A program made the translations under genes and the position numbers. Shown here one piece after another: positions 44,601 through 63,609 of a stretch of 64,000 nt of DNA. Positions within the stretch are counted from its first letter, which is position 1; every line of letters starts with the position of its first letter. The notes under the pieces are model-generated. The model was not told where the DNA came from. It saw nothing but the letters and a program-made list of their open reading frames with translations, and made no database searches. Source of the stretch: Phorcus lineatus (taxonomy: Eukaryota > Mollusca > Gastropoda > Trochida > Trochidae); the NCBI GenBank assembly GCA_921293015.1, contig OV121087.1, forward strand, positions 36,315,235 to 36,379,234. The letters run 5' to 3'.

Positions 44601-45462
44601 AAACAAAGATTCGTCCAGACTATCGCACTCCAAATTACTCACAGTGCTGCAGTTTTCCGTACATTAAAAACTTTATGTGAAGTAACTTAGATATCTTTCT
44701 TAAAAAAGAAGAGTTTTACTATGAGTGAAGTTGTGCGAAGTCGAGGGCGACCGCGAAAGTACGATGGAAATTCGCCTGCGAGACGACAACAAGAGAGAAA
44801 ACATGCAGCGTTGCATTATGGGAAGGGACTTTTCTCATTCTATTTATAGATCTACTTAACTGCTGACGCACTGTATCTAAAAATAGCTTCGTTAGCAGCA
44901 TAAGCTTATCGCTGAAAACGTAATCGAACTGGCCGTTTAAGCTACCTTCTGAGATAAACCTATCATGCGTATCATGTTTGTGAGTTTTGAAATGGAAAGT
45001 TGAAAGAAATTTAAATATCACTGTAATTTAATGAAGATAGGCCTATATCGTTTTTCCAAACTTTTTGATTAATTACATAACAGTGCGAATTTTGATTCTG
45101 ATCTACCAACTGACGAATAAAACCCAATAAATACTTTAGGTCTGTATCTATATATAATGCGTACAAGTTTACGTTGAGTATGACTATATATCCTATGCCG
45201 ATTACGACAAAGATAGAGTGAATCGATCAATCAATATTTAGTAACATAACCGTCTTCTAACAGTAACCGGTCTCATGGTTCCGTCCAAATTTAATATACA
45301 TATTACCTCCGTATTTCTTCAGAAATCCGGATCGCACGTAGTCGATATCCTCCTTTGAAATCTGAAATTAAATAAGAGAAGGTCTAATTAATATGCCAGA
45401 GAAGTACTTTGTATCATGTCAACAACTAAAGTTATTACCGACTGACTTCTTACCTTCGCCAT
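11470..45462 (-). CDS. MOSPD2: MOSPD2, complete gene, 16 coding exons, 525 residues
   Basis: MOSPD2 is an ER-anchored VAP-family tether that binds FFAT-motif proteins and lipid droplets. Coding exons, 5' to 3': 45454..45462, 45307..45361, 41830..41991, 40679..40765, 39594..39748, 38784..38844, 37836..37874, 37533..37657, 28694..28777, 18276..18380, 14828..14940, 14594..14693, 13646..13742, 13080..13203, 12499..12598, 11470..11631. All junctions are GT-AG with matching phases. The 525-residue product is close to human MOSPD2 (518 as I recall it). Order: N-terminal helices (about 1-75), CRAL-TRIO domain (about 76-231), low-complexity linker (232-325), MSP domain (about 328-443) with a TTSPEKYRVRPS block, coiled segment and membrane anchor (about 489-510). 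No disabling change was found. Introns 8 (8.8 kb) and 9 (9.6 kb) are swollen by transposons. Confidence 0.95.
11690..11903 (-). mobile_element. tRNA-derived SINE, minus strand
   Basis: Reverse complement of the family at 6582-6892: the head CGGGTAGCGCAGTGGTTAGA is at the right edge, followed by a good B box (GTTCGAATCCC) and the shared CAGGTTTGGGTGCGATG body. It lies in MOSPD2 intron 15 in the gene's sense orientation. The left edge is uncertain and no target duplication was found. Confidence 0.78.
12499..12598 (-). CDS. MOSPD2: MOSPD2 coding exon 15, post-MSP segment
   Basis: 100 nt, acceptor ATGTTTCAG, donor GTCTGT. Completes R439 and encodes LRCIYTSS, then a polar stretch ending MAKQ. It is needed to restore phase 0 for the last exon. 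Confidence 0.88.
13080..13203 (-). CDS. MOSPD2: MOSPD2 coding exon 14, MSP C-terminal half
   Basis: 124 nt, ends in phase 2, acceptor TCTCCGCAG, donor GTCAGT. Encodes KDKFLIMGMEL and ELWKTVPRENIMEHR, matching human DRFLIMAAEM...FWKEVPRNKVMEHR. Confidence 0.96.
13646..13742 (-). CDS. MOSPD2: MOSPD2 coding exon 13, MSP core
   Basis: 97 nt, phase 0 to 1, donor GTAAGT. Encodes VKTTSPEKYRVRPSSG, the most conserved MSP block. By family knowledge it contributes to the FFAT-peptide groove. Confidence 0.96.
13907..14045. repeat. Foldback (near-perfect palindrome)
   Basis: Left arm TTACCCGAGGAAGTGTGTCA... and right arm ...TGACACAATTCCGAGGGTTA pair along about 60 bp around CGAGCGAGAGCG. Similar words (CCATATGGGTAATAAA near 14225, and GACGACGTAA) suggest a larger MITE of about 330 bp that ends near 14236. 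It lies in MOSPD2 intron 12. Confidence 0.75.
14594..14693 (-). CDS. MOSPD2: MOSPD2 coding exon 12, MSP domain
   Basis: 100 nt, donor GTATTC, ends in phase 0. Encodes PAEELEFCADENG and the ISLTNTLPYGIAYK strand, equivalent to human SPAEELYF...LTNVTKNIVAFK. Confidence 0.94.
14828..14940 (-). CDS. MOSPD2: MOSPD2 coding exon 11, linker to MSP domain
   Basis: 113 nt, ends in phase 2, acceptor CTTTTTCAG, donor GTGAGC. Basic linker ending in RLLTVS, which leads into PAEEL at the start of the MSP domain. Confidence 0.88.
14941..15898. other. MOSPD2 intron 10 (3' part on the minus strand), no gene
   Basis: AT-rich intron sequence. A block at 15240-15350 (GAGCACATATGAAATGTCAC) echoes the tail of the foldback-associated sequence at 14180-14230 and is probably a relic of the same repeat. 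Confidence 0.4.
15901..16267. mobile_element. MITE, Tc1/mariner type, TA target site
   Basis: Ends CCGTATTCGAC and GTCGAATACGG are perfect inverted repeats flanked by TA (15899-15900 and 16268-16269). GCGCCC words lie near both ends. A non-autonomous mariner-like element of 367 bp in MOSPD2 intron 10. The open frame across it encodes nothing recognisable. Confidence 0.85.
16846..17238. mobile_element. MULE-type MITE, older copy
   Basis: Starts CATTCTCTCCCAACAGG and ends AAAGAATG. Long diverged inverted ends and shared internal text (AAAGCTAAACTT, AGTTAGTTGTGCAAT) match the element at 41303-41742. Nine-base flanks AACAAAAGT and AACAAAACT agree at 8 of 9 positions, the size expected for Mutator-like elements. 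Confidence 0.8.
17239..18275. other. AT-rich MOSPD2 intron 10 DNA
   Basis: No gene, repeat or structured element is recognised between the MULE-type MITE and exon 10. Confidence 0.5.
18276..18380 (-). CDS. MOSPD2: MOSPD2 coding exon 10, variable linker
   Basis: 105 nt, phase 0 at both ends, acceptor ATTTTAG, donor GTGAGT. Encodes a Ser/Asp-rich, probably disordered segment (VTFADQDSTVFRSLSLDKEE). Support comes from splice sites and phase rather than conservation. Confidence 0.8.
18478..18660. repeat. Short interrupted repeats with TGACATCA words
   Basis: ATGACATCACAATGGCTAT or close variants occur three to four times within 130 bp, separated by AAACTGAAAACAA. Similar words occur at 57630 and 58650. 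Probably part of a foldback MITE family. Confidence 0.55.
19378..19851. mobile_element. TTAA-flanked MITE
   Basis: The ends read AGGGACACAG and CTGTGTCACT, inverted, with TTAA on both sides (19374-19377 and 19852-19855). 474 bp, in MOSPD2 intron 9. TTAA targets point to piggyBac or Kolobok mobilisation. A partial relative ends at 38269. Confidence 0.72.
20154..20171. repeat. 18-bp perfect palindrome
   Basis: ATCGCAATGCATTGCGAT is its own reverse complement. It sits in a block with several GATA/TATCGG words and may be the core of an old MITE. The 115-codon frame running through it is not supported as a gene. Confidence 0.6.
20520..22300. other. AT-rich intron 9 DNA with a relic of a gastropod-type repeat
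   Basis: Mostly featureless. At 21588-21650 GAGTGAGTTATTGTTTAACG followed by GGGCAATATTTCAGCCA is a degraded match to a repeat I know from gastropod genomes (TTTACGCCGC...GCAATATTCCAGC). It supports a molluscan source but is too short for firm assignment. Confidence 0.4.
22306..22446. mobile_element. Small MITE family, copy 1 (most diverged)
   Basis: GGAAAGATAGAGGCCAAAGG...TTTTGCACACTGG...AATGGTCCATTCAAAATTC...CTTTCCCTATCCTTG. The same order of blocks occurs at 29855-30032 and 42829-43001; the ends are inverted repeats of the GGGATTGGGAAAGACA type. Confidence 0.65.
23340..23960 (+). repeat. piggyBac left ~190-bp direct repeat block (about 4 units)
   Basis: Units are marked by (T)CTTTAATTCCATGTA-like text, then a CATGTGCGC word and AATAAAGATxC..CAAGTGCCGC, at about 23355, 23534, 23731 and 23924. 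Spacing is 180-197 bp and all copies point the same way. They diverge moderately. Confidence 0.78.
24630..26624 (+). CDS. piggyBac transposase, 664 residues, intact
   Basis: It cuts and pastes the element at TTAA. The DDD catalytic residues are D287 (in CVDEGLVPW), D366 (in VFMDNFYSS) and D473 (in MGGVDRADQ), with D476 also conserved, the pattern of the cabbage-looper enzyme's D268/D346/D447/D450. An acidic Ser-Asp run (about 35-58) opens the protein. An AT-hook-like RRPRGRPS (548-555) and a zinc-binding Cys-rich domain (C586, C589, C622, C625, C630, C634, H639, C644) close it. The ATG at 24630 follows a splice-acceptor-like TTTACAG at about 24611, so an untranslated first exon is possible. 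No stop or shift interrupts it. The antisense 183-codon frame at 24003-24554 is ignored. Confidence 0.97.
   Translation: MPKARRPRTRSWEGPSTSSDDDFINEVHADEASDMESTDESDSDSDSDSDGESDIDSDVEIRNIARHILAATGETATTGTSTEEEFSGFDEQYNEMDTHFDDRDNFMERWTEGPRPRGRVDLQFTGNTGLGRFIELPDNPQPVDYFGLFFHEDDYGSMAAETNRYFHQQVDDTVLKPCSRLRQWYDTNAEEMKVFVAMTIAMSLVVQRNFSEYWSSSDVTSTPFFAKCMPRDRFWLLLTYLHLNDNNQMPGRNTPQFSPINKLGYLYKRIVHRFSRIYKPHQTICVDEGLVPWKGHLSFKVYNPDKPKKYGIKAYMLCDSTNGYVCKFQLYTGKTNESVSVGGKTYDLVMDLVKDYAGKGYHVFMDNFYSSVALYINLWEMGTGATGTLRGNRKGIPEKLKKAQKKQKKGDMMIYHNQDLLVVRYEDRKSVLLMSTVEDTEIVETGKKNRVTGEANTRPSIVHEYNKYMGGVDRADQMLSYTPFKMKTLKWWKRVWFHVLNVAMLNSYILYKEFSKDKTLKTSRQFRKDIVQHMITFADTEKVPSLRRRPRGRPSTSDESVLRLHGRHFPSKIQPVGKKKRLSRMCVVCSKAKRELFRRAVEESNEPVRKKKRVGKESSYECSECNVALCAAPCFRIYHTSQDCTKAYISLMSEKENEGDTQED
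26728..26733 (+). terminator. Poly(A) signal of the piggyBac transposase
   Basis: AATAAA about 105 bases after the transposase stop, in GTCAATAAAATAATC; the only canonical signal close behind the ORF. Confidence 0.6.
26890..28060 (+). repeat. piggyBac right ~190-bp direct repeat block (about 6 units)
   Basis: The same unit as on the left of the transposase, in the same orientation, marked near 26902, 27091, 27289, 27489, 27870 and 28020. The middle three are clearest (CTTTAATTCCATGTATAATA, then ATATGCGCAG). A GC-rich insert with CCCCGGGGG and GGGGTACCCCC lies between units at 27620-27790. Confidence 0.78.
28694..28777 (-). CDS. MOSPD2: MOSPD2 coding exon 9, linker
   Basis: 84 nt, phase 0 at both ends, donor GTAAGT. 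Encodes DKFEYKYVPSANR and a Gly/Ala-rich tail; DKFEYKY corresponds to human DPFKYSY after HMGGT. Confidence 0.9.
29855..30032. mobile_element. Small MITE family, copy 2
   Basis: Starts GGATTGAGAAAGGTAGGGAC and ends TGTCTTTCCAAATACCTG, inverted relative to each other, with AATGGCGCATTTTAAATTC inside. In MOSPD2 intron 8. Same family as 42829-43001. Confidence 0.7.
30411..30648. repeat. DIRS left inverted terminal repeat
   Basis: Matches 35755-35971 in reverse complement through about 200 bp (for example GGGGTACTTATTGCATAAAA and GGCGATAACCGTTCCGCC). The outermost 22 bases have no partner on the right but reappear in the internal complementary region. Confidence 0.92.
30686..30785. repeat. DIRS internal complementary region
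   Basis: 100 bp made of the reverse complement of the left tip (GTACCCCAAGGAGGATCC ... AACCTCTACAGGTTTGTTCG) joined to that of the right tip (TTCTTTTTCAGAAGG ... TTATTGCATAAAA). It equals the junction of the two ends and sets the element's limits. Confidence 0.9.
31150..32250 (-). mobile_element. DIRS tyrosine recombinase region (fossil)
   Basis: The core-binding part is recognisable by TNTQYEDRWACYAHWC. The catalytic part follows with GRRVGDIHAMS and, further on, AHSVRAVATSKA and FIRHYQL, corresponding to the R...HxxR...H/Y layout of tyrosine recombinases. It overlaps the RT region. Treated as a fossil. Confidence 0.85.
32050..33770 (-). mobile_element. DIRS reverse transcriptase-RNase H region (fossil)
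   Basis: RT blocks include IDLKDAYLHVPMHPQ, FRVLPFGIATAPRVFTKLM and the catalytic YLDDW. RNase H follows, with TDASLSGWGGVL and LEMDNQTAMSYI. These are characteristic of DIRS/Ngaro rather than Ty3 or Copia elements. Confidence 0.92.
33790..35190 (-). mobile_element. DIRS Gag-like region (fossil)
   Basis: Several hundred residues with no strong named domain. A Cys-rich stretch near the 5' side (CFNCGSNIP and CITCLVEEG) suggests a zinc-binding motif, and a Ser/Thr/Gly-rich part follows. The position ahead of RT fits DIRS ORF1. Confidence 0.65.
35755..35971. repeat. DIRS right inverted terminal repeat
   Basis: Reverse complement of the left terminal repeat with only a few differences. It ends in GGATCCCTTCTGAAAAAGAA, which also appears in the internal complementary region. 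Confidence 0.92.
36269..37283 (+). mobile_element. pearl/CvA-like (Helentron-associated) non-autonomous element
   Basis: Short inverted ends TAGCTCATCAG (36269) and CTGATGAGCTA (37273) enclose about five tandem units of about 145 bp. Each carries GGTCACCAAACCTACAATTT, AAGGAGTCTACACAC, AGCTCTCTAGACC and TTTGACCCCTGTGACCCC. An ACGG/GGAC microsatellite (37199-37230) follows, then a GCCTTGCCATGCC right end. This layout of inverted ends, ~150-bp core repeats and ACGG microsatellite matches bivalve pearl elements and HINEs. No coding capacity. In MOSPD2 intron 8. Confidence 0.82.
37199..37230 (+). repeat. (ACGG)n-type microsatellite of the pearl-like element
   Basis: ACGGATGGACGGACGGACGG and continuation, about eight units with two ATGG variants, close to the right end of the element. 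Confidence 0.9.
37533..37657 (-). CDS. MOSPD2: MOSPD2 coding exon 8, end of CRAL-TRIO
   Basis: 125 nt, donor GTGAGT, ends in phase 0. Encodes AWKVIKTWLS and LPEHMGGT; the PEHMGG motif closes the lipid-binding domain. Confidence 0.95.
37836..37874 (-). CDS. MOSPD2: MOSPD2 coding exon 7, 39-nt micro-exon
   Basis: Acceptor CTGTTTCAG, donor GTACGT. Encodes AYMLIYEMPWILN, the conserved CRAL-TRIO strand. Its phases (1 in, 1 out) fit both neighbours. Confidence 0.93.
38160..38269. mobile_element. Partial TTAA MITE related to 19378-19851
   Basis: GGTATTTTGGCTC followed by AGCCA(C/A)AT and CTCTGTGTCACGTTAA parallels the right end of the element at 19378-19851. No left end was found. In MOSPD2 intron 6. 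Confidence 0.55.
38784..38844 (-). CDS. MOSPD2: MOSPD2 coding exon 6, CRAL-TRIO
   Basis: 61 nt, donor GTGAGT, phase 0 to 1. Encodes DMDLVKYVINSFKYYYPCML, collinear with the vertebrate protein. Confidence 0.95.
38890..39580. other. MOSPD2 intron 5, AT-rich, featureless
   Basis: No repeat or gene recognised. The short open frame at 39400-39681 only overlaps exon 5 antisense. Confidence 0.5.
39594..39748 (-). CDS. MOSPD2: MOSPD2 coding exon 5, CRAL-TRIO core
   Basis: 155 nt, phase 1 in and 0 out, donor GTGAGC. Encodes TIRVGLHKKD and VVVIFDMHDAGLSNL, the central CRAL-TRIO strand with the FD motif. Confidence 0.95.
39881..39998. mobile_element. Short MITE with GTTGCACAAAAC ends
   Basis: GGCCCTGTTGCACAAAAC on the left and GTTTTGTGCAACGACCCCC on the right are inverted repeats. 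Inside, CACTAAGGTTACCTTA and CTAAGGTTAACCTTAGTG form a further palindrome. About 118 bp, in MOSPD2 intron 4. Confidence 0.75.
40679..40765 (-). CDS. MOSPD2: MOSPD2 coding exon 4, start of the CRAL-TRIO domain
   Basis: 87 nt, phase 1 in and out, donor GTAAGG. Encodes the LWEKGALYFHNADKDGHQI segment, equivalent to the human IGVIYLHGYDKEGNKL region. Confidence 0.93.
41303..41742. mobile_element. MULE-type MITE, young copy with 9-bp duplication
   Basis: The ends CATTCTCTCAC and GGGAGAGAATG continue into inverted repeats of about 70 bp (ACAACCTCTGTCTTAATTCG and its complement). TATTCTACC is duplicated on both sides (41294-41302 and 41743-41751). A 9-bp duplication plus long ends indicates a Mutator-like non-autonomous element. 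In MOSPD2 intron 3. An older relative is at 16846-17238. Confidence 0.9.
41830..41991 (-). CDS. MOSPD2: MOSPD2 coding exon 3, N-terminal helical region
   Basis: Acceptor after a T/C tract (CCCCCAG), donor GTATGT. 162 nt, phase 1 in and out. Encodes the YDKRDVSRFTDDDNYVLTF and HESLKWRQEW blocks, matching the CRAL-TRIO N-terminal region of MOSPD2. Confidence 0.93.
42829..43001. mobile_element. Small MITE family, copy 3 (best preserved)
   Basis: AGATTGAGAAAGGCAGGGGC at the left and TGTCTTTCCCAATCCCTG at the right are inverted. ATGGCCCATTCAAAA and repeated GGCCCATT words lie inside. 173 bp, in MOSPD2 intron 2; no clear target duplication seen. Confidence 0.72.
43010..44170. other. MOSPD2 intron 2, no gene recognised
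   Basis: AT-rich sequence with no ORF of note and no repeat that I can assign. Confidence 0.45.
44177..44936 (+). mobile_element. TTAA-flanked element of 760 bp
   Basis: ACGGCCAGTTCGA and TCGAACTGGCCGT are perfect 13-bp inverted ends bordered by TTAA (44173-44176 and 44937-44940). The ends do not start CCC as piggyBac ends do, so Kolobok or a divergent piggyBac are both possible. It lies in MOSPD2 intron 2 and carries a small AT-hook ORF. Confidence 0.75.
44721..44849 (+). CDS. Small AT-hook-like ORF inside the TTAA element (42 residues)
   Basis: ATG to TAG, encoding MSEVVRSRGRPRKYDGNSPA and a basic tail. RGRPRK is an AT-hook core, as seen in the N-termini of some DNA-binding transposon proteins. 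It may be the truncated start of a lost transposase or accessory protein. Too short to assign; no evidence of expression. Confidence 0.35.
   Translation: MSEVVRSRGRPRKYDGNSPARRQQERKHAALHYGKGLFSFYL
45307..45361 (-). CDS. MOSPD2: MOSPD2 coding exon 2
   Basis: Acceptor TTTAATTTCAG, donor GTAATA. 55 nt, ends in phase 1. Encodes ISKEDIDYVRSGFLKKYG. Confidence 0.85.
45454..45462 (-). CDS. MOSPD2: MOSPD2 coding exon 1 (MAK, 9 nt)
   Basis: ATGGCGAAG followed by GTAAGAAG. The ATG sits in a good context (AAAACAAAA before ATGG). It joins in phase 0 to the next exon, giving MAKISKED, which fits the family's short N-terminus. Confidence 0.8.
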
Positions 45463-45600
45463 TTTTGTTTTGGATATAAATGACAACTTCCGGGTCAAAG
45501 GTTGCCTGATGATGCTTGATTCATACATGTAGCATGTGCAAACCGACCATGTGACCGGCGGCCCTCGCTCTGATTTAAGCGAACGAAACAAATTTTAGTC
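45463..45600 (-). promoter_or_regulatory. MOSPD2: MOSPD2 proximal promoter / 5' UTR with ETS-type site
   Basis: On the minus strand CCGGAAGTT lies about 25-35 bases before the ATG, a typical ETS/GABP site of housekeeping TATA-less promoters. The block is more GC-rich than its flanks. The transcription start is not determined. Confidence 0.5.
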
Positions 45601-46691
45601 TATCGGAGCAAGGACCAGTTGCCCATCAGCCATGTTATTATATTGAATACAATAATTTATTCTGAGACGGCCCGTGAAATTGTAAAATGTTTAAAGTCGA
45701 GGGCAGTTTAAGTTTTTATGTCGACTCACAAAAAAAGAATTTTCGGTTGCTTTTCTAAAATGGCCCGAAAAAGAGTCATCCCTTAACCTAGGTACTCAAG
45801 TTATTTCTTTAAAGTAATCTATCAAAAGACTTGAGGACATTCACCTGAGCGTTGCGCACAATGCTTTAACAAGATAAAAGATGGGCGACGATTGTGACTG
45901 GATATATATGGACTGTATCCATGTTGAAGAAATGAAGCGATAGTATTACCCACGTGCACGTGTCAATCACGGCCCGTTCAACAAAATACTTACAATTGAT
46001 CGATTGTAAGACTACAATCAATCTGTAACACATGAAAAGAATGGGACTGTAACTCTACACTTGCTTTGTGGAACAAGCCCATGCAGCCAGGGACTTGCTC
46101 GCGGCGTACGCCAAGTCTCAGTAGGTCTACGTTATGTATAGATGATACGTTGGCTCCTAATCAACCGTGGCCGTTGTCGAGAGCTCACGTGCTCTGACTT
46201 TAGAACCACTCGTGTGTAGTGAACGTTTTAAAGAAAACGTTGCATTTTAGTCAGCAAAACTAAAAACATTACACTCTACAAATGCGATGTTATCATTAAA
46301 AACTGTGTTAAGAGATATAGGCCTATTGCCTGAGAGGTAAAGCGATATCTCGGAAATACCATCATGGCGCTTTACCCAGTAGATTGTGAACAATGCCTCG
46401 CCATCGTCGACCAGACACGTCATCATAATGCTTTCACTTCATGAGTATATGACATCACAAAACCATAACCAATCAAACACGATGACGTCACACTACATTG
46501 ATATCACCGTTTTGAAAGTGTTGTACTTAACTGTTAATTGCCTATATTTTCACTGAAAAGTAATTAATATAGTAGGGGTTGGATTGTAGGATCTTTTGGT
46601 ATCAAATGAATCGACCAATATAAACGTCTAATATTTTTTCAAAAGTTATAATTATTTCATTAAAAAATCCAACATTTATGATGCCACAAAT
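45600..46691. other. Intergenic region upstream of MOSPD2
   Basis: No ORF of note. CACGTG occurs at 45951, 45957 and 46186. A block at 46345-46420 (GCGATATCTC, then AGTAGATTGTGAACAATGC) is shared with 57545-57615, indicating a repeat family on both sides of the large inverted-arm unit. Confidence 0.4.
45971..46081. mobile_element. Short MITE-like element
   Basis: GGCCCGTTCAACAAAAT on the left and GCTTTGTGGAACAAGCCC on the right are imperfect inverted repeats; TTACAATTGATCGATTGTAA inside is palindromic. About 110 bp, distantly similar in its ends to 39881-39998. Confidence 0.6.
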
Positions 46692-47235
46692 CACAGGGGC
46701 GTGTATCGCTTAGAATTAGCTTTAGAAAGACATATATACCCATAGACCCTACCCTACTACTATATAAAAGGAAAGGGATGTAACGACCAAACCACCCCAT
46801 GCTCGAACAAAGTCAGTTTTCGCATCCAAAATAAATTTTCTGGACAAATTGTTCACTACGATTCGAAAGCTAAATGATTTCCCTACAAAACGAGCTATGG
46901 ATTGTCAAAATCGGGTAATTATTTCAAAAGTTACATGCAACGACGTCCCGAAAATCGCTACCGCCAGATTTTCAGGCCAAAATCCCCACTCACGGAAAAC
47001 AGCAAAAACTCACCGTTTAACATCGTTTATTGATTCCAGCAATGTTGACAACACCAATGTAGAGCTCGATTCGATCGGCGACATCGAACTACATGTTCAC
47101 AATATGAGAACAGCACCTAATTATTGTTTCTACGAGTGCTAGCATACATTTTATCAAAAATCATCTGCTTTGCTGTTGTCTTGCCTGCCATAACAGTGGC
47201 CTTGACATTCATTTGACCTCGTAGCCGCAGCAAAT
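46692..47235 (+). repeat. Left arm of a long inverted repeat (544 bp)
   Basis: Reads CACAGGGGCGTGTATCGC inward and is the near-exact reverse complement of 56205-56748. It contains a TATA box (TATATAAAAG at 46761) and an open frame. Homology starts sharply at 46692 and stops after CGCAGCAAAT at 47235. No flanking target duplication could be found, so it may be the terminal repeat of a large element or an inverted duplication. Confidence 0.9.
46897..47142 (+). CDS. 81-codon ORF in the left arm, unknown function
   Basis: The frame is open from 46768 to TAG at 47140-47142. The first in-frame ATG is at 46897 (MDCQNRVIISKVTCNDVPK...). The predicted product is basic with many Thr, Asn and Ser and has no recognised domain. 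The same protein is encoded inward by the right arm (ATG at 56543, end 56298). Identity follows from arm identity, so it does not itself prove selection. Confidence 0.3.
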   Translation: MDCQNRVIISKVTCNDVPKIATARFSGQNPHSRKTAKTHRLTSFIDSSNVDNTNVELDSIGDIELHVHNMRTAPNYCFYEC

Positions 47236-47437
47236 AAACAACTGAGCGAACTCCGAACTCTGATCGAACTCCTCACACTCCTTTCAACACCATGTTTGTA
47301 AACATCACAACGTGGTCGAAAAAAGTTTCGGATTTATAGACGTGTCCACCTTACCACAAGCAACTGGAGCTGTTGTTTTTTTGAAATTAGTCACATATAG
47401 TAATTTAAGAGAGCCTTTTTTAGGAGTTTAAATTTTT

Positions 47438-47565
47438 ATGTCTGAATCGGCAAAGGAAAAAAACGATTCTCCAACTCCAGGCGCTTCGAATCACTTCTCT
47501 CCGCTGCTGGCAGTGCTGGGAATAATTAATGGACCGATGCCTTCAATTTACCAAGCCTCCATCAG
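47438..47565 (+). CDS. Candidate first coding exon inside the inverted-arm unit
   Basis: ATG opens 42 codons (MSESAKEKNDSPTPG... then SPLLAVLGIINGP) followed by a good donor, CAG|GTAAGC, in phase 2. The composition looks coding. It starts about 680 bp after the TATA box of the left arm. Acceptors at about 47976 and 48896 both lead soon to stops in this frame, so the product would be a short protein or the model is incomplete. No family is recognised. Confidence 0.3.
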
Positions 47566-48895
47566 GTAAGCATCGGCGTATACGATGTTTTCATTATATT
47601 GTTTTCTTTAATTGCCATCATTCTATCATTTTAACATCAATTTATTATTTTACTTTAGTGATTGTTTAAACATCTCTAAAATGTTATTTATAAATCTAAT
47701 TACTTTGCCAATATTCCAACAACAAAAACCCAGTAAGACAAGCTTAATTGATTATTGATTTTAGATGAAAGTGCCATGTTTTTAAACATATGACAATAAT
47801 ACCAACTTTATCGATTAGGTATGCACGCCTTTTGAAAATTTGAAGGTGCTATATTTGTATATGATTATAAAAAATATATATGTGAAACTGGAATAGGTAA
47901 ATGATTAGTTAAATTAAGTTTGAAACCATTTTAACAAAAGTCTAAGTCATGATTTTTATTTTGGATTTCAGATGAAGGCATGTCACAGACATAAACAGTA
48001 AGTATTTGATTGAGAATTTATGTCATTTTAATGATCTGGTTAGCAATTTGATATAACACCATCAAATGTATTTACCAGCACTTCTATTTCTAAGCTGCTC
48101 AATATTTGATTTTTATTCAAGACTGTTAGAATACCTGAAATTCCCATTTTGTAATATCATATTTATACATGTAGATAATTTAAAGATTGAGCCTTCCTAT
48201 TACACTTACAAACTGATGGTGACAGCTGGTTAATAGCCTTCTGGCTTTTTGTAATAAATATCTAATATATGATCATGATATGAAACTATGTTCTGAATTT
48301 ACTGACAAACATTGTGAAATACAATTAATATATTTAAAATGAAACAACAGGAGAAAATCCCAAATTTTAAACATATTAAAGAGGATATTAAATCTGCATA
48401 TTTTGTTGACCGATTTAACGCCTACACAAACTGTAAATATGATAGCTTTATGAATTTCTGATCAATTTGTCATACTCTTGTCTGAAGTATTAGATTAGTT
48501 TTTAATTATTACTATTTTCAACCTACTGTCGGAATTGATTTTGAATATAAGATTGCCTATCCATTATATCTTGTATACATTGATGAAATATTACTTGTGT
48601 AAAATTTGTTTATGTTGGGAACTGTTATTCTAATATGTGTTTTTTTTGTATGGAGTTTTGGAAAAAAAATAAAAATAAAAATAAAAATAATATATGATCA
48701 TGTACAATCTATTCATTTGGGTAAAAGTTTCTAAAGAGAGTAGCAGAGCAAGTATGGTTTTAATTTAACAAGCACAAATACATGATGTAGCCTAGAATTA
48801 TCCAAAAAAAATAATAATTTAAGAAATAAAAGGATGAAATGTACATTGTTTAATATATAGAAGTGTTTTTTTCAAAAAAGACTCTCTCTTTGCAG
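47566..48895. other. AT-rich interior of the inverted-arm unit
   Basis: No assignable gene. A possible 26-nt micro-exon (acceptor GGATTTCAG before about 47972, donor GTAAGT at about 47999) and an (AAAAT)n run at 48660-48692 are visible. Confidence 0.4.
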
Positions 48896-48960
48896 GCATG
48901 TGTCTCAATACAGGAGGAGAGAGTGGAGACACTTTTCTATCATTATTTGAAAGTTTTCAG
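48896..48960 (+). other. Candidate internal exon (strong splice signals)
   Basis: Acceptor CTCTCTCTTTGCAG ends at 48895 and donor CAG|GTAAGC starts at 48961; 65 nt. Two of three frames are open. It could precede a terminal exon starting at 53343 (acceptor ATATTTTTCAG), which is followed by AATAAA signals near 53458-53480. The reading frame cannot be settled by eye. Confidence 0.3.
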
Positions 48961-50416
48961 GTAAGCACAACAGCCACAATCTAATGATTTGGATCATTGC
49001 ATGATATACTTTTTAATTCTTTTGTTAATAAAGTGGATTTCAGAATTCGTCACTTTTTCAAGACCTCAAACACAGAAAATGAACTCTATGTGATAATAAT
49101 TTTTTTTATTTGAATAACAACCTTAAACATTGTATTATCGAAAAATACAAAATGGCAGGCTTAACTGTAAACAGTAATGTGTTTAATGAGTCATAACTAA
49201 TTAACAGTAATGAAAATTGTCCTGACCGTTACCATGATAATTACATGAAAAAACTATCCTGGTCTTTGCCAATAAATAATAATTTTAATTACAAATGGAC
49301 TTTTATAACTCTTAATATATTAACATGAAAGTTAAAGTGCTTTTCAAATGTATTAAGAACAAGATATAGCATATTAAACCAACAACCAGGCAAATTTTCA
49401 CTCCGAAAACCCAAAGAAGTTTTATTATTTTCTTAGTGAGCTAATTTTTTAATTTTTTTGTCTGAAAACATTATACTAATAATGATTTTCTTTGTCTTCA
49501 TGTCAATAAATTTCTTGCATTTTTTTCAAGTATTATTAAATAGGTGTCATTTATTAGTGGTAACAGTCAGGACACAACTGGTAACAGTCAGGACACAACT
49601 GGTAACAGTCAGGACATATGTTTTTGTAACTCATAATTGTACCTAAGAAAACCTATGAAATGACTTTGTTTTGTTATTGTGACATCACAGCAGAAGTAAA
49701 GAGTTTAAAATGAAATTACATTAGCTTAAAATAAAGAAATGATATATTGCTGTTGTTGGTCTTATGGGTTTGTGAAACAGTCAGGACACTTTAGGTAACA
49801 GTCAGGACCCCCTTGGTAACAAGACCAACTTTGTGAAAGAACACAATATTTTGTTAACATTTGAGATATGATTTTAAAAGATGGTAACAAATTAAAGCAT
49901 TTTGTGCAAAACAGTCATGAAGATACTGTAATGTTTTGCAGGTGATGCATACCCAAAAAATAGTAACAGTACAGGACAAATATGGTAACAGTCAGGACAT
50001 TTACATACTCATATGTATATTAAAACCCGTCATATGGACTTTTAAAGAAAACAGTAATATTTCATATTTTGGAAGATTACAATAAAATAGGTATCTTTTC
50101 TTGACCGCAATTAGATATTCTTTGATAGCTCTGTTTTAAGTCAAAAACCAATTATCTTTTAAAAAACATCTGTAACATTACAAATAAATTCCTGATACAA
50201 CAAGGGCCATTGATAACAGACTAACATCAATACGGTAACTGAAACTAAGTAAGTAACTTGAAACATAAGTAACTTCAGCAAAATATATCATTCTGGTTGC
50301 TGACTGTACCAGTTTTGACTAGAAGATGTTAATGTTAACATAATACCAGTATAGTACATGTATTACCAATTAACATTAACATTTTAACTTGAAATCTATC
50401 AATTGAAATTTTTTTT

Positions 50417-50677
50417 TAGGGGCCGACCATTATATTTTAGGGGGAATTGGATTGAATTTTTGGTGATGATTGATTATTTTTTCAGACATTCGTTGAAAAC
50501 TCAGTCACCTTCAATAAAAATTACTTTCTTCCGTTTTCTAAGCTGTTCAACAAATTTTGGACAACATTTTTTTTGCCCAGGCTTTGAACAAAATATTATA
50601 AGAGAAATTTTGGTGACATATTTTGTGCAAAATAAATCAAAGCCCACCTCTCCAGTAATATAAAGATCGACCCCTTA
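50417..50677. mobile_element. Possible MITE inside the nested element
   Basis: TAGGGGCCGACCATTATATT at the left and ATATAAAGATCGACCCCTTA at the right are imperfect inverted repeats about 20 bp long. No target duplication was found. It separates the forward-motif and reverse-motif halves of the array. Confidence 0.5.
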
Positions 50678-51140
50678 GCAAAACAATATAGGAATTCAAA
50701 CTATACACCTATAAATTACGTAAGCATATTTTTTCTCATAGTAACACCACCCTTTTAATTCCAACTTCAGCATATTTGTTTCATCTGATTTACCTCAGTT
50801 ACAGCTGCCACTCTGAAAAGGAAAGTGATGTTTTTTCAAGTACTGAACAGCTGCAACTGAACAGTACTTACCTGTAAAATGAAATCACTACCGGGTAAAT
50901 GCCACTGTTAAATCAGTACTTTACATGAAGATTTATTTTGTATGATAAGGAGGGTGCTTAATTAATTTCAAGGTGTATGGTCTGAATTCCTTTGCTCTAA
51001 TTCTTCCACTATCAGTTTCCATGTGTCAGGGTCCACATTCTTGTGTCGAGAGTTGTTGCTCCCTGATGGCTTTGGAATGAGAGCAAGTACACTACTATCG
51101 TAGTCATAATAAAAATTGTTTAATGATTTTTTTCCCTCAA

Positions 51141-51920
51141 ATTTGTAACAACTTTGTCCTGACCATTACTAATTTTGTCCTGACTGTTACCCAAAATCAA
51201 CCTATTTCGTTTTAACTAATTCAATGTCTGTTTGATTGTGAAATTGTAGGTTTGGGTGGTCAAAGAGCTCACACTTACTAAATTAAGAGAAGTTATTCTG
51301 AATCAAAAGTAAAACTTTTCATTTGTTTTAGATGTATTTGACAAATATGTCCTGACCATTACCCAAATGCCTTAATTGTTTTAATCATAATCAAATTGTT
51401 TATCTAGTCTTTTACAAATCATATGTTGTAAGTATTACTTACTTTAACACGCATTAGATACACATTCATGTTTTTATTACAAATTTTAAGTTTTATTTGA
51501 TTATGCAAAAAAAAATTGTTTTGTCCTGACTGTTACTGGTATCTGTCCCGACTGTTACTGGAAATTAACTTATCTAGTGTTCTTTAATTTTTCACCTGTA
51601 TTTTCGTACAAAATGGATTTAGGTACACGTAGCAGTAAACAATAAATAAATTAGAGACTGCCATTTTGAATAATAACAATAAGAATTTAATGTTTTTATG
51701 AAATTTGTAACAACTTCGTCCTGACTGTTACTATTTTTGTCCTGACCGTTACCCCAAACCAACTTATTAACCTTTTAACACATTTCTTATCTGTTTGATT
51801 GTGAGATAGTAGGCTGAGTGGTCAAAGGGTTCAAACTTAATAAATTAAGAGAAGTTATTCTGAATCAAAAGATAAATTTCGTATTTGCTTTACATGTATG
51901 TGATCATTTTGTCTTGACCG
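51141..51920. repeat. Tandem duplication with period of about 560 bp
   Basis: Text at 51141-51352 (ATTTGTAACAACTTTGTCCT ... GTTTGATTGTGA ... AGAGAAGTTATTCTGAATCA) recurs at 51704-51913 with moderate divergence. Each copy starts with a pair of the 14-bp motifs. It explains part of the motif multiplication. Confidence 0.8.
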
Positions 51921-52718
51921 TTACTATTTTTGTCCTGACCGTTACTATTGTGTGTGGTTACGGTCAGGACAATAACAGTCGGGACATTTTTAATTCAATC
52001 ACAGTTAAAATAATGATGAGCCCCAATGAATCTGAAGAGCACATGGCATCAGCTACTATTCACACAAATAGGTATATCTTATGAATTAGTATTGCAAAAA
52101 ATGCGCATTTTCAATATAAAGTATTGGTAACAGTGAAGGACAACAAAAGGTGACTTAGGTGTAATTCTACTTTCCTCAAATGGGAAAATTGTCTTTAAAA
52201 CAGCTTGGTGCTTGAATCCATTAATTCAAATGGCTTGACAGGAAGTAAACTCTCCAGAACAGGAAGTAGAGTAACAAGACAGCATGAGGGAGACCTCATT
52301 TTTGGCATTTTTAACATTGGTAACAGTCAGGACATGAATTCCAGGGACAAGCATATTTTGAAAGAAAAAAATAATAAAATATTAATGAAACTCGAACTCG
52401 ATCATAGTTGGTTGAAGTTTATTGTCTAAGGAAAGCAGAACAACATGAAAGCCAAAAAAATATTGTTAAATTTTGTGAGTTTTAGAACATAGCAGAGAGT
52501 GGGGGTCACCCAGGGACAGGGCATTTAGACCAATATTGGCAACTAAAATGCTGACAAAAATATTATAATTAATTTTCAAAATTGTAAATAGTACTCCACT
52601 TGTTCAGAAAATGTGTAATAATAATTCAGAATTAATAAAAATGCAATTTTATAAGTCCTTGTACATGGGAGGAGGAAAGGACTTAAAAAGTGACGAATTC
52701 TGAAATCCACTCTATTAA

Positions 52719-55700
52719 TGTATTTCAGCAGATAATGTAGAGTATTAGATATATGCCACTGAGACATGATCAAGTTGAAATATGTTTCTCAAGGTAATTT
52801 TGTTTTAGATATATTACTTAATAGTTGTGTTTACCATGAGTGAGAAAAGGGAAGACAATTGTCACAACAGGTTCAATGGGAGGAGAGGTAGTGGAAGGGC
52901 CTAACCATGGGGGAATATAAGGAGATAACAAGGGGGCTTTAGGGTTATTGGTTAGGTACCATGTCTTAAGCTGTTGTTAATGCTGTATGAAACTTTTTTG
53001 GTGAAAAGTGTCACTTTGTTTCTAGAGTTTGATTGAGAAATTCTGTAAAAGAGGCAAAAGAAATCCAACTTAAATTTAAAACCTATTTATTTCGGCTATC
53101 TTAAAAGCAAAATGCTGTAATCATAAATGTTTATACAACACACCTTTACCAATGTAGATTATGATTAACCAAATATTAAGTTCCATGATTGTTTGAATTA
53201 TGAGAGCAACCACTTTGTTATTTTAAATGATAGTTTGTAACATTAAATACAATTAATAGTGTAGTACTTGAGGAGCTATAATGACAATGGAACAATATTT
53301 TTTTGCCTCATATTTAATTTGGTTCCAATTTATATTTTTCAGTTACAAGATTCAGTATCAAGAGGGGACAGTTTAATCTGGAGAATATCCTTGCTGCATA
53401 CATGGAAAAGAATCACTAATACATGGACACTCTTGAAACTTTTCTGCTATTGTAATTCAATAAAATCTTCAAATAAAATAAATAAATTGACTACCAATGA
53501 ATTTATTTGTAAGGATTCTTTCATATGTTTTTGTATATATACAGACATACAAGTGAGTCCCCAATTAAGAAAACAATACATTTACTTTCATCACTTACAT
53601 CCAATTATATTGATTGTATTGAATTCAATTGATTCTAATTATTTGATATGTGATCATTTTAGGTGCCATTAGCCTTCAAAGAACTAAACGTGTGTTTTGT
53701 AGAGTGTAAAATAGATATTTCATGTGTTTAATACATGAATTTCTAGCCACCTACGGATAACACCTCCCTTTTCAAAGTTTTAGTTTAATACCATTAACCA
53801 TAAGGAATTGTTAACACTTTGCATATCTTAGATGATCAGTAGGTTGTACTTCATAAAAGCCTTTCATGATGTTTTTATGAATATTTAAAAGGTTGAGTTG
53901 ATAAATTTCAAAGGATGTTCAATACTGAATACAAATACTTTTATGACTATAATATACATATCAATAATAGGCAAGGAAAGTTTATTTTGGCATAACTTGT
54001 AATGAGTGCTTAACAGTAGGTGAAATATGGGCTACAAATCAAATCTGCCTGTTTCGTGCTGGATATATAACAAATGATGTACAAAGAATGTGTTTTTAGA
54101 TTTTCAATTATAATTTCTACATCAAATATTCTATGCCAATTGAATTAAACTGCAAGCAAATAAGTGATTCAATTTCACTTTTCACCTCATCTAGCCTGAC
54201 ATGGGACGGTGTCCTTATATAATTTTGTGTACCAATTCCTTGACTACTAAGGATCTAAATTTATAAATTTGGTGACCTAAGAAAGGCCTCTAGGGCCACT
54301 CCTAAAGCCTATTTTCATTTTTTTCTCCTGAAGATGATAGTGAAGAAACCTGTACATTCTAATGAGGATTCTAAACTATATATTATATATCTTGTTTGTC
54401 CCTGACTAAAGTCACACAGGTCATGGCCTTATAAATATCTTCTTCTTTAATAATCTTAATAAAGCTAAGAAAGATGGAATATTTATATGCTCCATAAGTG
54501 ATTGGTATAATAATACTATGGCCTAATGATAGTAGATTTTAAAGACTGATGAGCTCCAGGGTCATGACTCTATTCTTTTAAAACTGAGAAAAATATTACA
54601 GAACTGATGTGCCTCTGAGCCTGTGAACCTTGTAAAAAGGTTGAGTGTGTATCACTGTTAAGGTTTGTGTTATTTTATCACGCTCAACTCAAATTAATTT
54701 CAGTGAGCTTAATTAATTTCTTTGAAGTGTAAAAAAGGTAGAGCCTTCATTTGATTACAATTCTAACCATTACAGACATGTTTATGAAACTAAAGAGTTT
54801 ATTGCTTGCAAGGCAAACAAATTCAGGACATTTTGGGGAAAATGCCCTCTTATTCTAAAAAATATAACTAAATCAGATTTATTGCATTTGAAACAGCAAT
54901 TAAAGATACAAGTACTGTGCCAGTCTGGAGATCTGTCACTTCAGACATGCTTTTTTTGACCTTATACATAATAAAATATACTGATTACTTTAAGAATGAA
55001 ATTTATTATGTTATTTATTGGACACACTGTTAATGTTTGTTCCTTATTGGGGAGAGACTGGCCTTATTTTAGTAACTTAAATCAAATCACCTTTTCATGA
55101 GGCATAACAATCTACCTTTCAACTGAAGTTATAAGAAAAGTTATTTTTTCAACATGATTATACATAACTGTTAATAAGTTTTAATGCAGCATATTGTAAC
55201 TTAATATGTTTTTGTTGTTTTAATCTTTTAACTATGAAAATCAAAATTGCTTCCAATAAAGAAAACTAAGGTAACCTTCCAAGCGAGGCATTGCATTTAT
55301 GCCCCTAACCACCAGGGTGGTTGAACAGTATGAATTACAAAATACAAGTCATTATCAATGATTGCTATCCACATCTTTAATGATTTACATGATCTCACTC
55401 CTGAGCCAAGCCAATATTGATAAAAATATATAATTCTGTCTGACCTCTGAAAAATAAATATCCCCTTTTTTGTCGAAGACAGTTTTGATAATTTTAATCA
55501 TATCACTATTGTTTGAAGAAATGAAATTAAATCACCCATCTAATTGTAACAGAGGTACTCTATAGTCTATATGGTATCATGGTTAACTTATTTTATTAAA
55601 TAATGTATCTGAACTGCACATCAAATATTCAACATGGAAGTAGTTTATCTAAAATTAGGAGTTGCTTTCAAATTTGCCTTTGAGATTCAAACCTCTTTAC

Positions 55701-56204
55701 AAATTCTTTTAATTTTTTAATATTTTCTTTTCCAGTTATAAAACATAACTGAGTTTTAAAAATATATGCTTTAATTAAGAAGGATAGCGAAATCTATCAA
55801 GTTAATGTTGGTAACAGGTTGATATTATATATGCCATCACTTTTTGGAGAAAAAGATCAAAACAATATTTTTAGGTAAATCGAGTAAAAGTTGTTTATAT
55901 ATTCTTTAATAAAACATGAAAAATCATACTAATAAGTATATTGTTCTACATAAATTACCAAAACAATGTTTTGTAAAATTTAAGTTTATGTTGCGATTTT
56001 CTAACGATTCGTTTGAAATTTTGACATTTGCCAGTCGAATAATTTCATATTTCTGGAACGTTTAAAAAAAATTATGATTTGACCCATAGTTATAAAGAAC
56101 GAGTTTATTTAATATTTTGGGCTCATTAAAACACACACGACTGCAGAAGGGAATTTAATAGAAAATACTCAATGTTAATTTCTACCAAATCCTATAATTT
56201 TTAA
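52719..56204. other. AT-rich right interior of the inverted-arm unit
   Basis: Holds the candidate terminal exon at 53343 with its poly(A) signals, and a degraded minus-strand copy of the pearl/HINE-like unit at 54240-54560. No other gene or repeat recognised. Confidence 0.4.
54240..54560 (-). repeat. Degenerate pearl/HINE-like relic, minus strand
   Basis: Read in reverse, TTTAGAATCCTCATTAGAAT, a GTACAGGTTTCTTCA block, ATCTTCAGGAGAAAAAAATG and TAGGTCACCAAATTTATAAA follow the order of the 145-bp core unit. A TGATGAGCTCC word near 54549 recalls the element end. Confidence 0.55.
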
Positions 56205-56748
56205 ATTTGCTGCGGCTACGAGGTCAAATGAATGTCAAGGCCACTGTTATGGCAGGCAAGACAACAGCAAAGCAGATGATTTTTTATAAAATGTATGCTA
56301 GCACTCGTAGAAACAATAATTAGGTGCTGTTCTCATATTGTGAACATGTAGTTCGATGTCGCCGATCGAATCGAGCTCTACATTGGTGTTGTCAACATTG
56401 CTGGAATCAATAAACGATGTTAAACGGTGAGTTTTTGCTGTTTTCCGTGAGTGGGGATTTTGGCCTGAAAATCTGGCGGTAGCGATTTTCGGGACGTCGT
56501 TGCATGTAACTTTTGAAATAATTACCCGATTTTGACAATCCATAGCTCGTTTTGTAGGGAAATCATTTAGCTTTCGAATCGTAGTGAACAATTTGTCCAG
56601 AAAATTTATTTTGGATGCGAAAACTGACTTTGTTCGAGCATGGGGTGGTTTGGTCGTTACATCCCTTTCCTTTTATATAGTAGTAGGGTAGGGTCTATGG
56701 GTATATATGTCTTTCTAAAGCTAATTCTAAGCGATACACGCCCCTGTG
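56205..56748 (-). repeat. Right arm of the long inverted repeat (544 bp)
   Basis: Reverse complement of 46692-47235 with very few differences, including the TATA box (56670-56679 on the minus strand) and the small ORF (56298-56543). The outer edge is CGCCCCTGTG at 56748. High identity implies recent origin or gene conversion between the arms. Confidence 0.9.
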
Positions 56749-58242
56749 GCACTAGGAGAGCTTTGAAAATCTAGGCCCAGGTCTTTTAGTGATAAAGGGT
56801 ACGATTATTTCACTGAGTGCTTGTAGATGGTATATTTCACTGTAACCTGACAGATGGCTTTCACGGATAAGACAAACAAAATTTTATATTTACAATAATT
56901 CCGATTTTCATCGACAATAGTTAACATCGCTTATAAAAAAGGGAGTGGTTGCATGAGTTTCATTTATGATAGACCAGAAACAAACAAAATGATTTTAGAA
57001 TATGCCTTATGAGTTGTAGTTTTTCATTTGCTTGTCAGTTATTCCTTTATAAGAAAGTATACACACGAAGTTTACATAAAAAAGATTAATCCTAGGCTTG
57101 GCAACAACAAAAAATCTAGTGGCATCCTTCAAAAAAAAGGACAACGAATTTATCTGAACCAAATGATTCTAGATTCTTTAGGTCATAATAGCAATAAGTA
57201 TCAAATGCAATTCAAAACGTCTTATCAACAACGAATGTGAATCTACTTTCAAAACGTGTTGACATTATACATATCTTATATTATTATGAGTTCTTGATTT
57301 CATCTCGGATTCATTCGTTCCATTCAGACATCTTATGTTCTCCCGAAATGTATATTATTATATTATGGACATCGTTTATATATCCATGCTCATAAAGTCA
57401 TAATTTCATCATTTTATTTAACTTAACAATGTGGGTATTATTATCATACAAAAAGAAGAATGTCACTAACACCACTGTGTCTTAATTGTCATTGCAATAA
57501 AACCATGTATCTTTTGTTTGAAAACTGTGTTCCACAGGAGATATCGCTTGTGGAATATCAAGTGATATCTCCTAGAAGATATCGTTTTGACAGTAGATTT
57601 TGAACAATGCACTGTTAAAGTCAAGTTCATGACATCACAAATGTTTTAAATCATCAAGTAATAAATAAATAGCAAATGCTTTGCGTCAATCTGATTGGCT
57701 GAACACGGTAATAGAAGTTCAGTTCATACCTCCATAAACTTAATTTCATGACGTCACATCATTTTAAGCCACGCCCATCGACGGAACTATTTGTAAACAA
57801 GTTACGTTTTTCTAAAAATAGCAACACTTTGTGCAATGCCACTCCTTGAAAGTAGGTAAATAAAAAATTAACATAATTCAGTATGAAATAATTATTGTTG
57901 TCAAAGGTTCTAAAGGTAGTACTTTCCATAATAAACAAGAGACCTCTATCAGAAATTAAAACCGATCGTGTTCCACCCCACAGAAGGCAAATGTCATTGT
58001 TCAATGCTCTCGCGGCCGTTGCAGGGAGGTTGGCAAAGTAATGTCGTTAAGTTTATGAGCAGAGTGTAGCTTGGCTCCTCAACAAGTTTAAGAACTGTGT
58101 GCTGTTTAATCAGATTCCGTTAGATCAAGATCATAACACCATCAGTATATGGCATATATGAGGGTAAATTCGGCTGGTTTCCTCTCCGAGTTCTACGTTC
58201 GCGATTTGTGTTTACAACTGTGAGAACTAGCAATGTCAAGGC
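56749..58242. other. Gene-poor DNA with a repeat shared with 46.3-46.4 kb
   Basis: At 57530-57620 GATATC-rich text followed by AGTAGATTTTGAACAATGC matches 46345-46420. No credible ORF; the frames at 57028 and 57759 are short and unsupported. Confidence 0.4.
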
Positions 58243-58480
58243 CACGTGTGACGGACGTCCGATAAGTTCATGGCCACGTGCGTTGTAGATTTTCATTGGC
58301 TGATGAACGTTTTGTAGGCGGGGCTAGGGATCCGATGACGTTTTGATTGACATTTTATCTCTTTCATGCTTTTGAGCGTTGAATTCCTTCGCATATATAG
58401 TGCAGCTCTATTTGGTGCAAATATGTATATTTAGAGCAATAAAATCGTTTAAAAACAACTAGTATGTATATATTTATTTA

Positions 58481-58638
58481 TAAGAATTGACTTCAACATG
58501 TATTAAGTTCATGGAGGTATAAACTTAAAAATCGATGTGCAAACTCGGCGTAAATCCGCTACGCGGATTTACACAGTTTGCACATCGGTTTTAAGTTTAT
58601 ACCTCCATGAACTTAATAAATGTTGAAGTCAATTCTTA
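58481..58638. repeat. 158-bp near-perfect palindrome (foldback)
   Basis: Left arm TAAGAATTGACTTCAACATG... and right arm ...GTTGAAGTCAATTCTTA pair along about 75 bp with a few mismatches. The centre is GTAAATCCGCTACGCGGATTTAC. CCTCCATAAACTTAA near 57730 is a fragment of the same family. Confidence 0.9.
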
Positions 58639-58778
58639 AATAACATCACAATGCTATGACGTCATAAACATGGTGACGTAACAATGCTATGACATCACCA
58701 CACTAAAAGTCTAAGAGTAGTACAGTGTTCAGCAAAAATACATTTTTCACGGGATAGAAATGAAAAATGGTTTTGGGT

Positions 58779-58933
58779 GATAAATAGAATCTCACCCCCG
58801 TGTCTTCTGATATCAAATATATCAACACTCGTTGATAAAAGTAAAATTATCCTCGGCAAGCCTTGGATATTTGAAACTTTTATCAACTCGTGTAGATATA
58901 TTTGATATCAGAAGACACTTGGGTGAGATTATC
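58779..58933. repeat. 155-bp imperfect palindrome (foldback)
   Basis: GAATCTCACCC...GTCTTCTGATATCAAATATAT pairs with ATATATTTGATATCAGAAGAC...GGGTGAGATTATC. Inner TTGATAAAAGT pairs with ACTTTTATCAA around a CCTCGGCAAGCC centre. Different sequence from the neighbouring palindrome but the same design. Confidence 0.88.
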
Positions 58934-59762
58934 AATGTACAACATGAATTAAAAAACACAGATTTCGTATCTTATTTATGTATACATATACATTGTCTTA
59001 TATGACCAACAAACGACATAGTTCATATTAACCTTTTTTATGATATCTTAATAAAACCACCGCGCCCTGTCCAAATACATCTTCAAGTTTTCACCAGTCA
59101 TGAACGTCATATTTGGAGTACTTAATATATACCGCAAGTGATACGACACTGATAAACAAAACGGACAAGCGCACTTGACCAAGTTGTCGGTAATTTAAAT
59201 CATCCGGAAGATTATTCATACAGAAAGTCAAATCTCTCATTTCATGAACAGTTGCATGAATTGCACTGGAGTTTATTCATTTCTGGATCACTTTGCAGAG
59301 GGAACTTGAAGTGTCACGCATATAAAGCCGTTAGGTTGTTGATTTCACATGCACGGACTGCACGTGCGTTGTTACTTTATGTTTTCTTCGCAAAAATATC
59401 AGTTCAAATCGCCCGATCGTTTTGCACGTGCGGCATGTTTAATGGAATGTGGTGACATTTTGTTCTGTTTCGATGGAATTTAAGAAGTAGGCCCATGTGA
59501 ACCTTTTGTCCAACACATCACAAGGGATCTTACGCAAGGACGCCTATATTTAGTCTGACGTTATTTAATCAATGAGTTGGATTTGTTCGTTTTGATTGTA
59601 TATATCAGTTGCACGTTTTCCACGTGCGGAAGCAGTTTTCATTGGACTCAGGAAATGTATATTTCAAGCAAACCACGTGATAGTATATAGTCGCAAATGA
59701 TCCAGAGATAATCATAACATCCTCTCAACAATCTGTAATTTTTTGCTTCGAATACTGTTTCG

Positions 59763-60038
59763 TTGTGCAAAAATAACGAGAACCTTACCCTTTTAACCTT
59801 GCTGTTGAGAAAACTTTCGAAAGGTTTTCATATTATATATTCTTCTAACAAGGACAATTTTGTTAATCACAAAGGTTTAGACAGTGATAAACCTGACCAA
59901 CTTTATTTATTGCATTTTGGAGCTTGTTCTACACTTCGGCAAAAGAAAGACAAATCTTTATGGATTGACAAGCTACCACAAGAAAAGTTTAACACATTTC
60001 AAAGGAGATTTGCATCAACAGAAAGCTCTTCAAAGTGA
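59763..60038 (+). other. Coding-like open stretch without an ATG
   Basis: An open frame of about 90 codons with polar, protein-like text (for example LRQKKDKSLWIDKLP) but no in-frame ATG before the stop at 60036-60038. It could be a 5' UTR, an old transposon fragment or part of an unannotated exon. I do not assign a function. Confidence 0.2.
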
Positions 60039-60100
60039 AGATTGAAACTATTGAAAAATACAGTGGAGAAGATTTGATCTAATTGAAGTATTTCAGTACG

Positions 60101-60109
60101 ATGTCGCGG
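60101..60109 (+). CDS. Weak candidate first coding exon (MSR)
   Basis: ATGTCGCGG followed by GTAAGTAG: a start with a strong donor after three codons, like MOSPD2 exon 1. No downstream partner exon is identified within the window. Confidence 0.2.
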
Positions 60110-61081
60110 GTAAGTAGAAAATTTGCGTCAAATGCATGTACATACAATCCCTAATTTATGCAGATATATGAGTTAACTCATAAAAAAAATATGCTTTATG
60201 AAACAATCACCTTCATGTTTGCGTTTCGCTTGCCCTGAGGGAAAACTGTTCATTATATTATCTATTTTGGGCAACCTGTCTTCTCTGAAACAAGGCTGTG
60301 ACTTATGGCAAACTGGGTTATCTCCCTTTAGTTAATGATTGATGTTGTCCATATATAAATCGAAAGAGGTCACATGTCAAAAGTACTAAATTCGTCAAAC
60401 TTGAATTGTTCTCTTTCGATTTAGCTATTCGTCCCATTTGTGTCCATTCCCGCGGGCTTTGATTTTTTTTTACCAGGGAAAATACTGAAAACTGACATTT
60501 TAAAATGTTGTTTTAAATTACGTTATATATGTTCTTCCTTTCACCGGCATTTCAGACATAAAGTTGCAACATTCAACGCATGTTTTATCAAAACAGTGCA
60601 CAAACAGCATCTGTTAACAACACCATGGACACTTGTCCACATTGAAGTACTACAAAACAACCTGTCGTTGCCTCATATTTATATATACACATATAAAAAG
60701 TATTACATAATTGATATAGTAGAAACTTTAATTGGTATATTCACCTGTTATATCAAAAAATATACATGGTGATGCATTAAAAGTTTAAGCAGGATAAACA
60801 AAGAAATATATTCAGTTATTTTAATGAAATACAGCTTCACAGTTGACGTTCGTTTTTGCTAAATTCCTGTCTAACGCGTTTGAATAAAACCTGATTTACC
60901 TGTTAGTTCAAGTTAATGTATATATGCAAAATTCTAGTGTATACCAGACTGTAAAATGCTTAACATCTGTATTTATACAGATTGGCCAAACTATAAAAAA
61001 AAACCTTAGTAAGTTTCATAAAATAGGCCTTTTAAGGACATCATCTGAAGATCTGGCATCGTGAGGATAGTGTTTGTGGTG

Positions 61082-63603: not shown

Positions 63604-63609
63604 GTAAGT

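Follow-up and report, generated by a model that had tools for sequence, protein, structure and literature searches.

Near-identical 544-bp inverted arms around a CpG-depleted segment and a putative host gene

DNA transposons with terminal inverted repeats include elements whose inverted ends are long – Foldback and MULE among them – as well as hAT elements, cited here for their tips. DIRS elements also carry inverted terminal repeats and lack a target duplication. Inverted duplicates are known, too, from inversion breakpoints: in Drosophila mojavensis, inversions 2h and 2q are reported to have such duplicates at their breakpoints, of about 1, 4.3 and 7.1 kb (PMC3355041).

Here we describe a unit of 10,057 bp that lies in a 64-kb stretch of DNA, the whole of which we refer to as the window. 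A segment of 8969 bp (47236-56204) is enclosed by two arms:

46692..47235, + strand: left arm, 544 bp, GC 0.41, CpG observed/expected 1.14
56205..56748, - strand: right arm, 544 bp, an inverted copy of the left arm with one mismatch

With the DNA transposons typified by Foldback and MULE the unit shares long inverted ends of equal length and an unrelated interior; unlike them, it is without target duplication and transposase, and its interior is gene-like. It resembles DIRS elements in combining inverted terminal repeats with the lack of a target duplication, but no RT/RNase H, tyrosine recombinase or other Pfam domain lies between the arms. Two solo LTRs or short interspersed repeats in inverted orientation would likewise be nearly identical, sharply bounded and constant in length, and would carry a TATA-like match; unlike a solo LTR pair, the arms are missing TG..CA ends, and a possible target duplication is found at one unit only. 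Finally, the arms are like the inversion-breakpoint duplications of D. mojavensis (PMC3355041) in being inverted copies, apparently non-repetitive as judged from the window, around a putatively gene-bearing segment, without target duplication and with no transposase found; they differ from those of 2h and 2q in their size, 544 bp, and in enclosing a segment of just ~9 kb.

The inverted arms and their junctions

The two arms can be aligned along their full 544 bp with no gap, and agree at 543 of the 544 positions, an identity far above chance expectation; the sole difference is at position 47155 (C versus A). Bases adjoining the two arms diverge immediately, at the outer as well as the inner edges. 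The preliminary description of this DNA had claimed near-identical inverted arms of 544 bp that begin and end sharply, and both claims are borne out. Recency of the duplication is suggested by the 543/544 identity, for which gene conversion could account instead.

A search of the window with the arm returned no further significant copy: the best other local match has an E of 0.028 over 31 bp, and there is no significant match in the DIRS-like element at 30433-35972. CACAGGGGCGTG, with at most one mismatch, is confined in the window to the two arm tips (2 matches, 0.04 expected). The arms run from CACAGG to CAGCAAAT, that is, without TG..CA termini, and no inverted repeat of at least 14 bp was found within 46600-47300. 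In prokaryote genomes the arm tip has three exact 18-mer matches, by our own estimate not above chance; in viral contigs there are no matches for the tip and one for the inner end of the arm. A literature search for CACAGGGGC together with an inverted repeat found no report.

The junctions offer two short matches, one of which abuts the unit:

46687..46691, + strand: CAAAT adjoining the left tip on its outside, the same 5 bases with which the arm ends

When each tip was shifted by up to 8 bp, in every combination, the whole unit showed no target duplication of at least 4 bp, in agreement with the preliminary description. At the left arm CAAAT is followed by CACAGGGG at the tip, and at the arm's end CAAAT comes after CCGCAG; the right tip is preceded by AGTGC, as against CAAAT or TTAAA, and shows no duplication. 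The five-base identity between the end of the left flank and the end of the arm has a probability of 0.0034 per comparison and, as about four such comparisons are possible, of ~0.013 for CAAAT. The other match, TGCCACA, occurs both in the outer flank on the left and at the outer junction on the right (probability 0.014). CAAAT at the left tip could be microhomology, a one-sided target duplication or chance; because it follows both copies, it may also be part of the arm. The two matches look like junction microhomology and would be compatible with a microhomology-guided event.

Each arm was said to hold a TATA box and the same inward open reading frame:

46761..46771, + strand: TATA-like TATATAAAAGG in the left arm, directed inward, a sequence match only
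56669..56679, - strand: TATA-like TATATAAAAGG in the right arm, directed inward, a sequence match only
46768..47142, + strand: 124-codon stop-free frame in the left arm, directed inward, probably chance
56298..56672, - strand: the same 124-codon frame in the right arm, directed inward

The matches and the frame are indeed present, and within the window TATATAAAAGG is restricted to the two arms. The frame itself is weak: a stop-free run of at least 124 codons also arises in 30 of 1000 dinucleotide-shuffled versions of the arm (shuffle mean 78). Its first ATG is codon 44, no Pfam family matched it, and a PDB search matched one sequence at E 0.6; it is probably not a gene. In the left arm AATAAA occurs at 46830, 69 bp beyond the TATA-like match, and the opposite strand of each arm carries an outward donor-like site (score 6.0). 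With arm frame, TATA-like match and outward donor as found, the case for paired inward promoters is confined to sequence matches, and the whole basis on which the arms might act as such promoters is the TATA-like match.

The segment between the arms and the neighbouring gene

The interior had been characterised as unrelated AT-rich DNA. This is too simple, in that it comprises a CpG-depleted block and a nested transposon:

47584..55787, no strand: CpG-depleted block, observed/expected 0.24, interpreted as a transcription unit that is methylated
49025..52718, no strand: nested element of 3.7 kb whose terminal inverted repeats, 34 bp long (97%), start with TTAA

Invertebrates such as the oyster have mosaic methylation that is concentrated in gene bodies; in the oyster it climbs steeply past the start site and declines slowly past the gene end (PMC4378273). 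Within the block at 47584-55787 we counted 44 CpG where 182.3 are expected; the corresponding counts are 152/131.0 in the left flank (from 44000; ratio 1.16) and 133/127.5 in the right flank (to 60000; ratio 1.04). A two-point fit places the edges of the block at 47580-47880 and 55640-56000, with boundaries ~350 and ~420 bp inward of the arms. In a control designed after the pattern had been seen, a random interval of 8969 bp had both ends at most 417 bp from some CpG transition in 3.3% of placements, and enclosed a whole depleted block equally closely in 0.15%. Such blocks are also common here, which, like the 3.3%, counts against the explanation that we favour: CpG-depleted segments number 8 of 16 in the window and cover 57%; one of them contains a C-rich minisatellite and not a recognised gene.

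Methylated CpG disappears over time, and it is because of this loss, together with gene-body methylation, that an old transcription unit is the best reading of the block. The stretch 47584-55787 would thus be transcribed and methylated, its depletion resembling that of gene bodies methylated in the germline, with CpG depletion being an indirect sign of methylation. Observed/expected values of TpG/CpA are 1.23-1.33 in the interior, 1.14 in the left flank and 1.24 in the right flank; since TpG/CpA is the expected product of CpG decay, the right-flank value counts against the explanation that we favour. A Pfam search of all six frames of the interior gave no domain up to E 1, whether of a transposase or of any other mobile element (0 Pfam families); the preliminary description had found no transposase either.

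A gene within the block can be put together in outline from three candidate exons:

47438..47565, + strand: putative first coding exon A, ATG at 47438, donor CAG|GTAAGC (score 7.2)
48896..48960, + strand: putative internal exon B, acceptor 6.3, donor 7.2
53343..53419, + strand: putative last exon C, to the stop codon, weak acceptor 3.9, AATAAA at 53459

The first CpG-depleted base comes 19 bases past the end of putative exon A (47565). By splice-site scores whose weights follow the textbook consensus, only two donors of at least 6.5 lie on the + strand of 46692-56748, those of putative exons A and B; when both strands of the unit are scanned, the highest donor score (8.7) goes to a minus-strand site inside the nested element. 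The acceptors are unremarkable: several others outscore the 6.3 of putative exon B, and C reaches only 3.9. Joining A to B yields an early stop, and for this reason the three-exon model is incomplete. PDB searches with the putative gene gave no matches, and with an alternative join one weak match, to a chain bearing the name P22 (E 0.0048), that we take as chance. As no single clean long frame across A, B and C was obtained, and no homologue was recognised in Pfam and PDB searches, the interior gene is only putative.

We read the nested element as an ordinary non-autonomous insertion of TTAA type, and it explains part of the so-called unrelated interior. The 15-bp motif GTAACRGTCRGGACA occurs in 19 copies, with at most two mismatches, all at 49218-52334 (0.27 expected in the window); in the left half of the element 6 of 7 are on the + strand, in the right half 9 of 12 on the - strand. 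The element has no match in a Pfam search, and its tip none in viral contigs; the motif GGTAACAGTCAGGACA matched 27 stretches there. Rfam gave no match in the window at gathering score. A permissive Rfam search of 46400-57100 returned two sub-threshold matches, both within the nested element, including a mir-155-like hairpin at 50326-50382 (- strand; 30.4 bits, gathering score 56) that is probably chance.

To the left of the unit lies a second gene, divergent from the putative interior gene:

37536-45462, - strand: gene with a CRAL-TRIO domain

CRAL_TRIO is recognised in minus-strand frames left of the unit (E 4.6e-12, best stretch about 37536-37688), and is all that Pfam reports in 36900-46691; we presume that the gene product resembles MOSPD2. 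PDB searches with pieces of the gene gave four weak matches, to CSR1 and YKL091C chains (E 0.0009 to 0.007). Five weak PDB matches to one minus frame of 36900-46691 (E 0.015 to 0.94) include no CRAL-TRIO protein, and we take them as chance. The gene starts with exons at 45462-45454 (ATGGCGAAG, donor 7.0) and 45361-45307 and one from 41991; joined together, these three stay open for 77 codons, the donor of the middle exon being weak (2.1). From its ATG to that of putative exon A the distance is 1976 bp, and the left arm is placed in the divergent intergenic space between the two genes. An arm-derived first exon of the CRAL-TRIO gene was considered, since the arm's outward donor-like site, which follows 47014 and scores 6.0, is in phase with an acceptor at 44335; this exon was dropped because the three exons already give the gene's start in one frame. 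To the right of the unit, six-frame Pfam searches of 56749-64000 found no family. A scan for bacterial-type promoters and terminators gave no excess over shuffles.

Origin of the inverted arrangement

Our preferred reading, in which we place about even confidence, is that a host gene was recently bracketed by an inverted duplication, by way of a small staggered-break inversion or template switching. Recent inverted duplication was among the options of the preliminary description, and it is the one that fits best with gapless arms that differ at a single base, no target duplication and a gene-like interior. The unit would be a resident host transcription unit, together with a nested TTAA-type transposon, bracketed by an inverted 544-bp copy of host DNA; the second copy of the arm would most likely stem from one local event, and mobility would be unnecessary. 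Such an event could have been the inversion of ~9 kb between staggered single-strand breaks, fill-in of which would leave an inverted copy at each end; alternatively, it could have been a template switch guided by microhomology. For an inversion with microhomology, the ancestral join would have run from the left flank to the reversed right interior (...GCCACAAATTTAAAAATTATAGG...). What was observed directly is the pair of arms and how closely they agree, the absence of a unit-level target duplication, the CpG block and the CRAL-TRIO neighbour; we infer the remainder, namely transcription and methylation of the block, the mechanism of duplication, its recency and any promoter action of the arms.

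The main rival, a possible though doubtful one that corresponds to the composite of two solo copies in the preliminary description, takes the arms to be two copies of an unknown interspersed repeat of ~539-544 bp – a solo terminal repeat or something MITE-like – in opposite orientation at the CpG-normal ends of a gene, possibly with later recombination between the copies. The neighbourhood is rich in transposable elements, the TATA-like match with AATAAA 69 bp on (46830) is reminiscent of a terminal repeat, and for the left copy CAAAT is a possible 5-bp target duplication. The right copy, however, has no duplication (AGTGC as against CAAAT or TTAAA), and CAAAT, which follows both copies, may belong to the arm; moreover, there are no TG..CA ends, no inverted repeat of at least 14 bp in 46600-47300, and no third copy in the 64 kb. 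An identity of 99.8% over a fixed length is also what might be seen if one 544-bp segment had been placed twice through an artefact of assembly or haplotype merging. We regard this as unlikely: each arm borders different sequence on both sides, and the base that differs (47155) is not expected from simple software duplication.

More improbable still is a non-autonomous DNA transposon of ~10 kb that has the 544-bp arms as its terminal inverted repeats and a host gene as its cargo. Inverted ends that are long, of equal length, almost the same in sequence and sharply bounded would suit such an element, as would CAGGGGCG within the arm tip, which is reminiscent of hAT ends. A transposon of this kind should, however, show a target duplication, and none of at least 4 bp was found; there is no transposase domain, and the CpG loss of the interior gives the appearance of a long-resident gene body, whereas the arms are nearly identical. 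The undescribed large transposon entertained by the preliminary description is accordingly disfavoured, there being no target duplication and no Pfam domain, and the interior being like a resident methylated gene. To an undescribed class of large eukaryotic elements, without target duplication and with a host gene flanked by inverted ends of 544 bp bearing inward promoters, we give the slightest credence of all; were it real, the gene would be read from both sides and a long hairpin RNA could form.

If the inverted-duplication reading is correct, the locus would be a small and recent case of a gene's upstream DNA having been copied, reversed, to its far side. Antisense transcription would then be possible, as would flipping of the gene through recombination between the arms, and the arrangement may be polymorphic in the population; the picture of transposons would be unchanged.

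Other elements of the window

Several further features were seen in the window. The DIRS-like retroelement at 30433-35972 has an RT domain and inverted terminal repeats of 96% (30433-30648 and 35755-35972), and an internal stretch at 30739-30785 matches one of its ends; its recombinase was recognised by eye only, the frame having no Pfam match. At 24627-26624 a stop-free frame of 665 codons encodes a transposase of piggyBac type (DDE_Tnp_1_7, E 4e-94), within an element at 24514-26799 whose 39-bp inverted repeats (90%) lie at 24514-24550 and 26761-26799. A frame at 339-1583 has a KIDINS220 SAM-like domain, which points to an animal as the source of the DNA. The C-rich minisatellite forms a strand-asymmetric array at 9054-10799 (GC skew -0.69 and -0.58 in two 2-kb bins), and its long stop-free frames are repeats, not genes. 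Two neighbouring short palindromes, MITE-like in character, are found at 58481-58638 and 58788-58930, with arms of 50 bp at 98% and 55 bp at 91%.
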